Source: Bacteroidia bacterium | Lineage (GTDB): Bacteria; Bacteroidota; Bacteroidia; JADZBD01 | Direction: 5' to 3' | Assembly (NCBI GenBank): GCA_020054095.1 | Contig: JAGVMA010000052.1 | Span: 186,001-250,000 of the forward strand | Length of the DNA stretch: 64,000 nt | In this document: one piece after another, positions 20,905 through 62,665 of the stretch | How the letters are laid out: each line of letters opens with the position of its first letter | Position numbering within the stretch: position 1 is the first letter of the stretch | Position numbers and translations under genes: made by a program | The notes under the pieces: model-generated | Database searches by the model: none | Told to the model about the DNA's origin: nothing | Seen by the model: only the letters and a program-made list of their open reading frames with translations

Positions 20905-22488
20905 ATGATCCCTAAAAATATTTTCCTCGCAATAATTTTTAGCTCAGTAAGCACCATTGCGCTGCAAGCACAAACTACCGTAAACTTTAAACACACCGGC
21001 AAAACCGAAATATTTATAGTGCCACAGGGCGTAACGAGTATTACTGTTGATATGGCCGGAGGATCGGGTGGAAATATTGGTGAGGCCATAGGCGGAAAAG
21101 GTGGCCGTGTGCAATGCGTGGTGCAAGTAACACCCGGAGAAACGCTGCGCGTTAATGTGGGCGGTGCAGGTTTAGATGGCGACAATAAAAGTGGAATTAT
21201 TAAAGGTGGATTTAACGGTGGCGGCACTGGCTATGATGATGACGATTCGTGGGGCGGTGGCAGCGGTGGCGGTGCATCAGATATTACACGCACACCATTC
21301 GGTTTAAAAAACCGAATAGTGGTAGCAGGTGGCGCAGGTGGCGGTGGTATTGATGGCTGCTCGAGTTCATATATGCTTTATGGCGGAAACGGTGGCGGCT
21401 TAATAGCTGCCGATGCACAACCTGCAAAAGGCGGTGGTTGCGATGGCAGCGGATTTGGCGGCACACAAACAGAAGGCGGAAAAAAAGGAAACTACACTTT
21501 AAACCCCTGCGAAAACAGATCAACCGATGGAAAATTTGGACAAGGCGGAAATGCTTTTGGCGCATGCGATAATAGCGATGATGGTGGCAGCGGTGGCGGT
21601 GGGGGCTGGTATGGTGGTGGCAGCGGAAACTTTGGTGCGGGCGGTGGCGGCAGCAGCCACACTGCCGATGGTTGCACCAATGTGGAACACACACAAGGTT
21701 ATCAGCAAGGCGATGGCTACATTACTATTACTTATGGTGCAGCAATTAAAACGGTGGTTGAAAAATTAAATGCAAACGCATCGGCATTACCTGCCGAAAT
21801 TTGCAAAGGAACTTCTACGGTGCTTACTGTGGCCGATATTACAGGCGGCACTCCGCCCTACTCTTGCCTCTGGACTCCCGGAAATTTATACGGCAATGTG
21901 ATAAACGTAAACCCTTCAAAAAATACAATTTACACCGTTCACATCACCGATAATAGTGGCAACACATTTACACAAACCGTAGAAATATTTGTAAAATCTG
22001 CGCTAAGCATAAGCATCACCAGCACACACGATAGTATATGCCCGGGCGAAAACACCACACTAAACGCTACCAAAGGCATGAGCTACAAATGGTTGCCTGC
22101 CGAAGGATTAAGCAATGCCTATATCCAAAACCCAACTGCCAACCCAAGCACCACCACTTGTTACACCGTAATAGTAACCGATGAAAACGGCTGCACCGGC
22201 TCCGCCACAAAATGTGTGGCCATAAAAAAATGCAAAAACATTAAAGAAGTAGGACTCGAATCTATTTATGTTTTTTACAACGCAGCTAATAACGAGTTTA
22301 TAGTATATGGCTTAGTAGCACCCGAAAACGAAGTGAAAATACTAAGCGGAACGGGCGATGTGCTGCTCACAAAAAATGCAGGGCCGGGTAATTGTATTTT
22401 AAGTGCAAGCAAATTACCCGATGGCATGTATTACGTTACCATCAAAACCAAAGTGGGCATGGTAAAGAAAAAAGTGGTGAAAAAGTAA
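20905..22488 (+). CDS. Glycine-rich secreted protein with SprB-like and T9SS-like tail
   Basis: A 527-residue protein. Signal peptide to about residue 22, then a glycine-rich domain of about 260 residues with GGGSGGGASD and GGAGGGG runs. Next come an SprB-like repeat (GGTPPYSCLWTPG) and a second Ig-like segment (PGENTTLNATKGMSYKWLP, ending in VTDENGCTGSATKCV). The last 85 residues resemble a T9SS type A sorting tail (LPDGMYYVTIKTKVGMVKKKV), but the usual YPNP start is replaced by FYNA. It is probably surface-exposed or secreted; no enzymatic motif is visible. Its organisation parallels the 44.1-46.0 kb protein. Confidence 0.7.
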   Translation: MIPKNIFLAIIFSSVSTIALQAQTTVNFKHTGKTEIFIVPQGVTSITVDMAGGSGGNIGEAIGGKGGRVQCVVQVTPGETLRVNVGGAGLDGDNKSGIIKGGFNGGGTGYDDDDSWGGGSGGGASDITRTPFGLKNRIVVAGGAGGGGIDGCSSSYMLYGGNGGGLIAADAQPAKGGGCDGSGFGGTQTEGGKKGNYTLNPCENRSTDGKFGQGGNAFGACDNSDDGGSGGGGGWYGGGSGNFGAGGGGSSHTADGCTNVEHTQGYQQGDGYITITYGAAIKTVVEKLNANASALPAEICKGTSTVLTVADITGGTPPYSCLWTPGNLYGNVINVNPSKNTIYTVHITDNSGNTFTQTVEIFVKSALSISITSTHDSICPGENTTLNATKGMSYKWLPAEGLSNAYIQNPTANPSTTTCYTVIVTDENGCTGSATKCVAIKKCKNIKEVGLESIYVFYNAANNEFIVYGLVAPENEVKILSGTGDVLLTKNAGPGNCILSASKLPDGMYYVTIKTKVGMVKKKVVKK

Positions 22489-22587
22489 ACAACCAATCAC
22501 TTCTCAATATCGCCTGCGCTGCCTGCCGCAGGCAGAATAAACGTGCGGTTCACGATTAAAACTGCTTAATAACGAACACACAAAACA

Positions 22588-22672
22588 CGTCATTACGATC
22601 CGCCTCAGGCGGAGAAGTATTCTCAAAAATAAAACTACATTGTATCGGTCGTTACGCTCCCTTGCAATGACG
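22588..22672. repeat. Inverted-end intergenic element (CGTCATT...AATGACG)
   Basis: Outer 7-bp inverted ends CGTCATT (22588-22594) and AATGACG (22666-22672) enclose a GC-rich palindrome CCGCCTCAGGCGG. It resembles the small CGTCATTGCGA-type intergenic repeats that are common in Bacteroidota genomes; only one copy is in the window. Confidence 0.4.
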
Positions 22673-22703
22673 AACTCGACAACGTCATGCTCTATCTGCG
22701 CGC

Positions 22704-22731
22704 TGTCATGCTGAGCCTGTCGAAGCATCTC
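22704..22731 (+). repeat. Dispersed repeat, copy 1
   Basis: The 28 bp beginning TGTCATGCTGAG match, in inverse orientation, 25 of 28 positions of 62447-62474. TGTCATGCTGAGC-type elements recur in intergenic regions of many Bacteroidota genomes. Confidence 0.6.
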
Positions 22732-22785
22732 TTGGCGTAGCCATAATTTTTTGTTTTAACAATTCATATCAATCAATTTTGAACT

Positions 22786-23013
22786 CTACAATAGCAAGTG
22801 TTAATGCTACAATCTAATCTTCTAAAACTACAACGGGCTACCGCGAATCAAAACAATACATTGTAGCATTAACGAGGTAAATTGTAAAACACACAATACG
22901 CATTGTGGAAACAAAAACGGTGATTGTAGCCCGTACAATGTACATTGTAGCAATGGCTTTAGTAATTGTAGCGTTAGATTATTAATGTGTAGCACCGTTA
23001 GATTATAGCGTAG
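22786..23013. repeat. 21-bp-phased TTGTAG array with inverted arm
   Basis: Forward cores start exactly every 21 bp at 22861, 22882, 22903, 22924, 22945, 22966, 22987 and 23008: TTGTAG, TTGTAA, TTGTGG, TTGTAG, TTGTAG, TTGTAG, GTGTAG, GCGTAG. On the left, inverted cores CTACAA start at 22786, 22807 and 22828, also 21 bp apart. The 14-15 bp between cores is largely non-repetitive. A perfect 14-bp inverted repeat (22800-22813 with 22860-22873) and a 14-bp palindrome ACAATGTACATTGT (22935-22948) sit inside. Function unknown. Confidence 0.8.
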
Positions 23014-23478
23014 CATCGTATTTACAAAACTACAGCCCTTGTAAATTGCGCAAAGGATTAAAAACATCATCCAGAAGGATAATTTAATGCTGTACTGGGG
23101 CAAGCAGTGAAAATTACGTAAAGTGCGCAAGGTTGATTATTGTAATTGTTTATTCTTTACAAACTATTTCTCCTTTTGATACTTTATGATTAATGCATAT
23201 ACTTGAATAACTACTGTCTTGCAGGCTCAGCTACCCAAAAGTATGTATACATTTACTTTTTTCCGACTTATTATTTTTCTTTATGGAACGTCAAAAAGTA
23301 AAAGAGCCAAATCTTTTTCTCGCTTGCACTTTTGCGCCTTATTTTATTGTATGTAATTTTAGCGGGCGCAAAAGAGCAAGCATCCGATTACGAAAAACCA
23401 GATAAAAAAGATTGTTTTTTTATCCGAAAAAATGTTATTCTTTTACTACATATTACTCAACAACTTAAAAACCCAAGC

Positions 23479-23805
23479 ATGGCTTGTACAATTACGGTTA
23501 CTTCAGCAGTAGTTAATGGCGGCAACGTCATAGTCGCTGGAAATTTTTCCGCAACTCCGTCATGCACTGGTACGCTTACAATAAGTGTAACCGTAACCTG
23601 TCTGGACGCAGGCGGGACTTTCAACATGACATCAGCAACAAATATTGCCATCTTTGCAACAATTCTCATTGATATTTTTTCTGGGGGCTTACTTACAACG
23701 GGTTTAGTAGTTGCACTTATAGCAATAACAGCATTTGCCACATGGGTTGCAATGTTTCCTTTAAGTAACCCACCCTGCAAAAACAACACCGCAACATGTC
23801 AATAA
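23479..23805 (+). CDS. Small cysteine-containing membrane protein of unknown family
   Basis: A 108-residue protein from the ATG at 23479 (MACTITVTSAVVNGG). The frame is open to an ATG at 23332, but those extra 49 residues are lysine- and aromatic-rich and unlike the rest. An N-terminal beta-rich part with three cysteines is followed by two adjacent hydrophobic segments (about residues 53-92) and a short tail PPCKNNTATC. It overlaps the next gene by 10 nt and begins a coupled cassette. Family not recognised. Confidence 0.5.
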   Translation: MACTITVTSAVVNGGNVIVAGNFSATPSCTGTLTISVTVTCLDAGGTFNMTSATNIAIFATILIDIFSGGLLTTGLVVALIAITAFATWVAMFPLSNPPCKNNTATCQ

Positions 23806-62474: not shown

Positions 62475-62539
62475 GCGCACGAGGACAAAAACCGATTAAG
62501 AACACAATTTGGGTTGTTTTTAGTATTATTCACCGCATT

Positions 62540-62665
62540 TTAAGTCTTATAGATTGGATTTACAATGCTAAGAATTGCGCCAATGATGCCGAGAATTGAA
62601 TTTGCAGCACCATGATTTGCATTCTCAAGATTAGAAAAAGAATACAAAGGGCTGAAAATCTCCAT
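62540..62665 (-). CDS. Possible 41-residue hydrophobic peptide
   Basis: A short frame on the minus strand from the ATG at 62665 (MEIFSPLYSFSNLENANHGA) continues with a hydrophobic helix (ANSILGIIGAILSIVNPIYK) and ends at 62540. Small, glycine-containing hydrophobic helices of this kind occur in toxins and bacteriocin-like peptides. No clear promoter or partner is visible, so this is a candidate only. Confidence 0.35.
   Translation of the reverse strand: MEIFSPLYSFSNLENANHGAANSILGIIGAILSIVNPIYKT

Follow-up and report, generated by a model that had tools for sequence, protein, structure and literature searches.

A worn 21-bp array in a Bacteroidia genome and a class of intergenic arrays whose cores may be held in register by bound protein

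The iterons of plasmid and phage origins are direct repeats set about two helical turns apart, so that their cores are read on one face of the DNA, and an inverted copy is often found close by. Two turns of B-DNA equal 21 bp. Other short repeats are organized differently. Slippage minisatellites usually come in many unit lengths, and CRISPR repeats are near-identical, about 23 to 47 bp long, and parted by spacers of similar length. In freshwater Planctomycetota, intergenic tandem repeats, whose unit length the text does not give, often take part in deletions of non-coding DNA (PMC9426551). REP elements have GTAG as their guide tetranucleotide and are recognized by a GTAG or GTGG with a completely paired stem, 7 to 20 nt long, that begins no more than 2 nt behind it (PMC6006769). 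A literature search, with most subscription journals outside its reach, yielded neither an account of 21-bp intergenic arrays in Bacteroidota nor anything on phased iterons.

Here we describe an array of this spacing in a window of 64,000 nucleotides (G000:C40:186001-250000). The genome, G000, comprises 3.17 Mb in 87 contigs, is Bacteroidia-like, and contains T9SS genes. The array is intergenic and lies 298 bp behind the end of one gene and about 450 bp ahead of the next. The features of the locus are as follows.

20905..22488, + strand: upstream gene, encoding a glycine-rich (ALK_LTK_GRD) protein with a T9SS sorting tail.
About 22490..22740, no strand: dispersed repeats CGTCATTACGATCCGCCTCAGGCGGAG... 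and TCATGCTGAGCCTGTCGAAGCATC, outside the array, of which the genome has many other copies.
22786..22833, - strand: inverted arm of three perfect CTACAA cores (TTGTAG on the - strand) at 21-bp steps.
About 22826..23008, + strand: open frame with one Cys per seven residues, which has no usable start codon and which we take to be incidental.
22834..22860, no strand: 27-bp centre between the arms; the core-to-core step across it is 33 bp, which is no multiple of 21.
22849..23016, + strand: best window of seven to eight units in the period-21 census, z 7.6.
22861..23013, + strand: direct arm with cores at 22861+21k and extended core ATTGTAGCA; four cores are perfect, and the rest have one or two mismatches.
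23480..23805, + strand: downstream gene, encoding a 108-aa protein with no family assigned; a further ORF begins at 23796, after this gene.

The first-pass annotation, made from the sequence alone, had reported eight direct cores at exact 21-bp steps from 22861 to 23008. We confirmed all of their letters and coordinates: TTGTAG at 22861, TTGTAA at 22882, TTGTGG at 22903, TTGTAG at 22924, 22945, and 22966, GTGTAG at 22987, and GCGTAG at 23008. The inverted arm was likewise as reported, with CTACAA at 22786, 22807, and 22828 (3/3 perfect) in 21-bp steps. The eight-core chain agrees with TTGTAG at 43 of 48 letters. No chain did better than 28 in 20 Markov surrogates, and with the step set to other values between 15 and 29 bp the best chain reached 29. 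Under an independent-letter model, with every hexamer, 15 periods, and the full genome allowed for, the expected number of chains this good is about 4e-9. We searched G000 for a second 21-bp array of TTGTAG and found none; this locus is the only one in its genome.

We then aligned the 11 units and found that the core exceeds the 6 bp first noted. It reads roughly A-T-T-G-T-A-G-C-(A), which gives ATTGTAGC(A) as the extended core. Of the 21 columns, 6 to 9 are nearly invariant across the 11 units, and the others approach randomness. The spacers had been described as largely unique. They are variable, but they are not wholly unrelated, since over 13 nt their identity averages 0.313, vs 0.275 for shuffled spacers (p=0.017). 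Among the recurring fragments, GTTAGATTAT appears twice and TAGCATTAAC appears on both strands. The claim of exact phasing with variable spacers stood, and we found no indel across the eight direct and three inverted cores. Like a CRISPR array, the locus has short conserved cores parted by variable segments of constant length. Unlike one, it has a core of only 6 to 9 bp, spacers of 12 to 15 bp, imperfect cores, and inverted units. The earlier exclusion of CRISPR was confirmed by the size of the core and by the unlikeness of the units. We also rejected a structured non-coding RNA, as there was no Rfam match in the window and the fold z score against shuffles was -1.06.

We scanned viral contigs, sets of 60 and 395 Bacteroidia genomes, and GTDB contigs with three-core and four-core patterns. 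Most viral matches to the core pattern resemble coding or low-complexity tandem repeats. A reversed control pattern matched Bacteroidia about as often as the true pattern did. This suggested that the signal lies in period 21 as such and not in TTGTAG. Because the pattern scans returned many 21-bp arrays of other sequence, we measured array periods without reference to any core. These period scans were ungapped and thus favour arrays without indels. In G000, the census covered 1,017,416 unmasked bp, about one third of the genome, with 72 kb of the sample masked. We found 12 period-21 arrays at z>9, and each of the other periods from 15 to 30 gave none or one. The array in the window scores z 7.6, vs 9 to 25 for the clear members, and lies below the gap that divides clear arrays from background. 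It is the most diverged non-coding period-21 array that the census found in G000. A 21-bp signal in shuffled sequence would have undercut the first-pass annotation, and we found that Markov-3 surrogates of G000 contained no array at z>7.5 for any period from 15 to 30.

The same census found no period-21 array in 150 kb of Escherichia coli. Forty other Bacteroidia genomes, sampled over 606 kb, gave one period-21 array at z>9 and no excess over other periods. In contrast, the census of 119,604 bp of the metagenome-assembled genome (MAG) Umea1_bin-1585 (G272) gave 22 period-21 arrays at z>10. In a lag scan of 120 kb of G272, period 21 accounted for 27 arrays and period 42 for another 4; the only array with a different period had one of 57. 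From this count, we estimate very roughly hundreds of arrays in the G272 genome. Arrays in G272 typically have 7 to 14 units, and all of the near-identical, and so presumably young, arrays are of 21 or 42 bp. Across the G272 loci that we inspected (L257 to L263), the density is about one array per 4 kb, and each array has a unit sequence of its own. The excess in G000 and G272, set against its absence from the 40 other genomes and E. coli, indicates that the preference for period 21 is real and limited to certain lineages.

A termite-gut Odoribacteraceae MAG (Cd354_bin70) carries three long 21-bp arrays with TTG(G/T)AGCTACAA in both orientations. These arrays were retrieved with the ATTGTAGC pattern, so their core was selected for but the rest of the unit was not. 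Two stretches of this MAG (L221 2456-3179 and L232 77-847) show more than 700 bp of continuous 21-bp periodicity, with two unit families in succession. We also observed near-same 21-bp units (ATTGTAGCGATACAATTACCG / ATTGTAGCCCTACAATTACCG) across phyla, in Prevotellaceae and Planctomycetaceae MAGs (L223 1469-1716, L235, and L236). This may reflect transfer, binning error, or chance. Elsewhere in Bacteroidia, the commonest short arrays are degenerate 7-bp tandem repeats (L278, L291, L296, and L300), which G000 has too. Although 21 is 3 x 7, the 21-bp arrays that we inspected show no obvious 7-bp sub-period.

A class of 21-bp non-coding intergenic arrays in this genome and in other Bacteroidia is well supported. 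In G272, nearly all arrays lie in gaps between genes, and a few lie inside large ORFs. In G000, 10 of the 13 listed arrays are clear of every ORF of 90 aa or more, and 2 overlap only ORFs of 113 to 117 aa that are largely confined to the array. The array at C84:26240 is coding, of low complexity, and inside a 1988-aa ORF.

We found that diverged arrays concentrate their conservation in one contiguous block per 21 bp (one-cycle z 6.2, n=17). With the end units dropped, the block signal persisted (z 4.8, n=14; 0/1000 shuffles). The array in the window was left out of this test and shows the same form. In less diverged arrays, the block is weak or absent, and within single genomes the signal is weak (z 1.4, n=7 in G000; z 2.2, n=6 in G272). 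An out-of-phase unit on the same strand was found near the array in only 4 of 51 cases. Inverted in-register units recur (in G123, G007, G132, and others), and the period-42 arrays show strict alternation. The sequence of the conserved block varies from array to array, and the unit in the window is common to no other array. The window array is therefore assigned to the class by its period, position, and form.

We compared G272 with its congeners G395 and G396, taking as orthologous short stretches with flanks 65 to 78% identical. At four G272 array loci, the orthologous stretches available from the congeners show no array. G395 and G396 carry 21-bp arrays of their own at other loci, one of them with 28 units. 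Absence at the orthologous loci and presence elsewhere suggest that arrays turn over quickly. A sequence of roughly 45 bp stands directly behind two G272 arrays (L262 9637-9700 and L263 8464-8500), with more copies in G272 and G395. As a general array-end leader it was rejected, because it occurs in 2 of about 27 sampled arrays.

We tentatively propose, with a probability of roughly 0.45, that the window array is an old, worn member of this fast-turning 21-bp class, in which one core per two turns would be held in register and bound by protein. According to this model, arrays would arise by tandem copying in 21-bp steps and then diverge. During their persistence, one core of roughly 9 bp per two helical turns would be kept in register. 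Proteins on successive cores would sit on the same side of the helix and touch, and this would hold the register. The inverted left arm would be a second co-oriented row that converges with the direct arm on the 27-bp centre.

Several observations bear on the parts of this model. Other periods are near-absent even among near-identical arrays, from which we infer that the 21-bp step dates from formation and was not picked out of random slippage by selection afterwards. The block of old arrays, with an invariant core between near-random spacers, suggests that one helix face is constrained every two turns, and bound protein would be the simplest cause. A single sequence-specific protein for all arrays is unlikely because the core differs between arrays. 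Conserved regulation of neighbouring genes is argued against by the turnover of arrays between congeners. If the arrays are protein-bound, they would be natural binding platforms phased at two turns. If they are not, they would point to a copying process of fixed step.

It is quite possible that the arrays are instead neutral minisatellites, made by slippage or copying that favours 21-bp units and then left to decay, with cores that are mere leftovers and bind nothing. The fast turnover between congeneric species speaks for this, as do a consensus particular to each array, a variable number of units, and an abundance limited to certain lineages. The young G272 arrays, all of 21 or 42 bp, add to it, since their step seems fixed at formation and not by later selection. 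Neutral copying accounts for formation equally well, but it does not account for the conserved block. Uniform decay should not leave 6 to 9 of 21 columns nearly invariant and the others near-random, and the block recurs across other diverged arrays. The lack of any indel beside near-saturated spacers also tells against neutral decay, but it weighs less than it appears to, because an ungapped scan favours arrays that are true to phase.

Like intergenic minisatellites and VNTRs, the 21-bp arrays consist of head-to-tail intergenic units, turn over quickly, and differ in unit sequence from locus to locus. Unlike them, they keep a fixed period across arrays, genomes, and families, retain one block per diverged unit, and include inverted in-register units. 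The first-pass annotation had held that the window array differs from ordinary tandem repeats. That view has to be softened: the 21-bp tandem arrays of G000 form a continuum, and this array stands at its diverged end.

A near-uniform 21-bp unit in arrays of differing sequence calls for a step that measures DNA length and not sequence. It is conceivable, if unlikely, that this step reflects a ruler mechanism, in which an enzyme or DNA-wrapping complex would copy intergenic DNA in exact 21-bp steps, with the unit changing from locus to locus, and would still hold the cores in register. Some arrays would then have been made with alternating or inverted units, and the array in the window would be an old product. 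Such a mechanism, if it exists, would be previously undescribed in Bacteroidia.

It is rather improbable that the locus is an independent cluster of operator or iteron-like sites, at which one regulator, Rep protein, or phage or plasmid remnant would recognize ATTGTAGC, unrelated to the other arrays. The confinement of the core to this locus within its genome fits such a cluster, as does the short downstream gene without a known family. A phage family also has about 10 sites with a TGTA core by its primase gene, with TGTAGCA in two members. On the other side, about 450 bp separate the end of the array from the next gene, the adjacent genes that we scanned gave no Pfam or NCBIfam match to replication, phage, or plasmid functions, and matches to plasmid and phage records cover no more than 8% of the query. 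An independent cluster would also leave about a dozen other 21-bp arrays in G000 unexplained. The window array shares with iterons the direct repeats at two turns and the nearby inverted copy, and its binding is predicted. It differs from them in that we found no rep gene or replicon context; it is chromosomal and lies between T9SS-type genes, and the core changes with each array of G000. The first-pass annotation had also offered a recombination site, for which we found no positive evidence.

In the phage family (viral contigs L388 to L397), the sites lie in an intergenic stretch near the primase gene, roughly 520 bp ahead of the matched gene. They vary by phage and keep the TGTA core (TGTAGCA, CTGTATA, TGTAACA, and TTTGTATA), and their spacings include 10, 11, 21, and 31 bp. 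They look like clustered binding sites of shifting specificity. The phage example indicates that cores of this type can work as a cluster of sites, but it does not speak for kinship with the window array.

We consider it very improbable that the locus is a decayed heptad-repeat minigene with a Cys every seven residues. The Cys-heptad frame that had suggested this does exist, with one frame open over the array and 21 bp equal to seven codons, but it has no usable start codon and the five other frames are interrupted by stops. Across 50 arrays, we found no excess of codon-position variability (3 of 50 at p<0.05, median p 0.51), and 7 of the 50 have stops in every frame. Coding alone should also give units of 18, 24, and 27 bp, which are rare here. 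We rejected heptad coding because the 50 arrays show no codon-wise variation; of the readings offered at first, a cause at the DNA level fits better than coding. In genomes of this kind, a predicted heptad "hypothetical protein" may be an array misread as a gene.

It is scarcely credible that the array is a cluster of REP elements moved by a RAYT (TnpA-REP) transposase. The array resembles REP/BIME elements in its GTAG, its intergenic position, and its inverted pairs, and G000 has one Y1 transposase gene, but in 10 of 11 units the 30 nt that follow GTAG form no stem as long as 7 bp (one unit reaches 7 pairs), dispersed single copies of the unit are absent from the genome, and the array has a fixed 21-bp phasing with neither a REP hairpin nor a matching RAYT. 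We sought a cognate RAYT gene in G000 and found none; the single Y1_Tnp match is subclass 1.2-like, with a DHVH / WQ / YIKNQ-HH signature. Subclass 1.2 is a Bacteroidetes/Cyanobacteria group of unknown role, described as being without REP-type structures (PMC6006769). The Y1 transposase-like gene, the only one found in the genome, is at L170 116-460 (G000:C31).

We made further observations around the array. A replication terminus, suggested by a turn in GC skew near 22 kb, was rejected, because the whole 268-kb contig has no single turn there. In the synteny comparison with the window, alaS was located in G001. The dispersed repeat TCATGCTGAGCCTGTCGAAGCATC also matches Hymenobacter plasmids, with 93 to 100% identity over about 28 bp. 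Finally, we observed a weak 21-bp array in another gap of the window (62516-62620; GCATTTTAAGTCTTATAGATTGGATTTACAATG...), whose units resemble those of the clear array at G000:C84:43261-43438.
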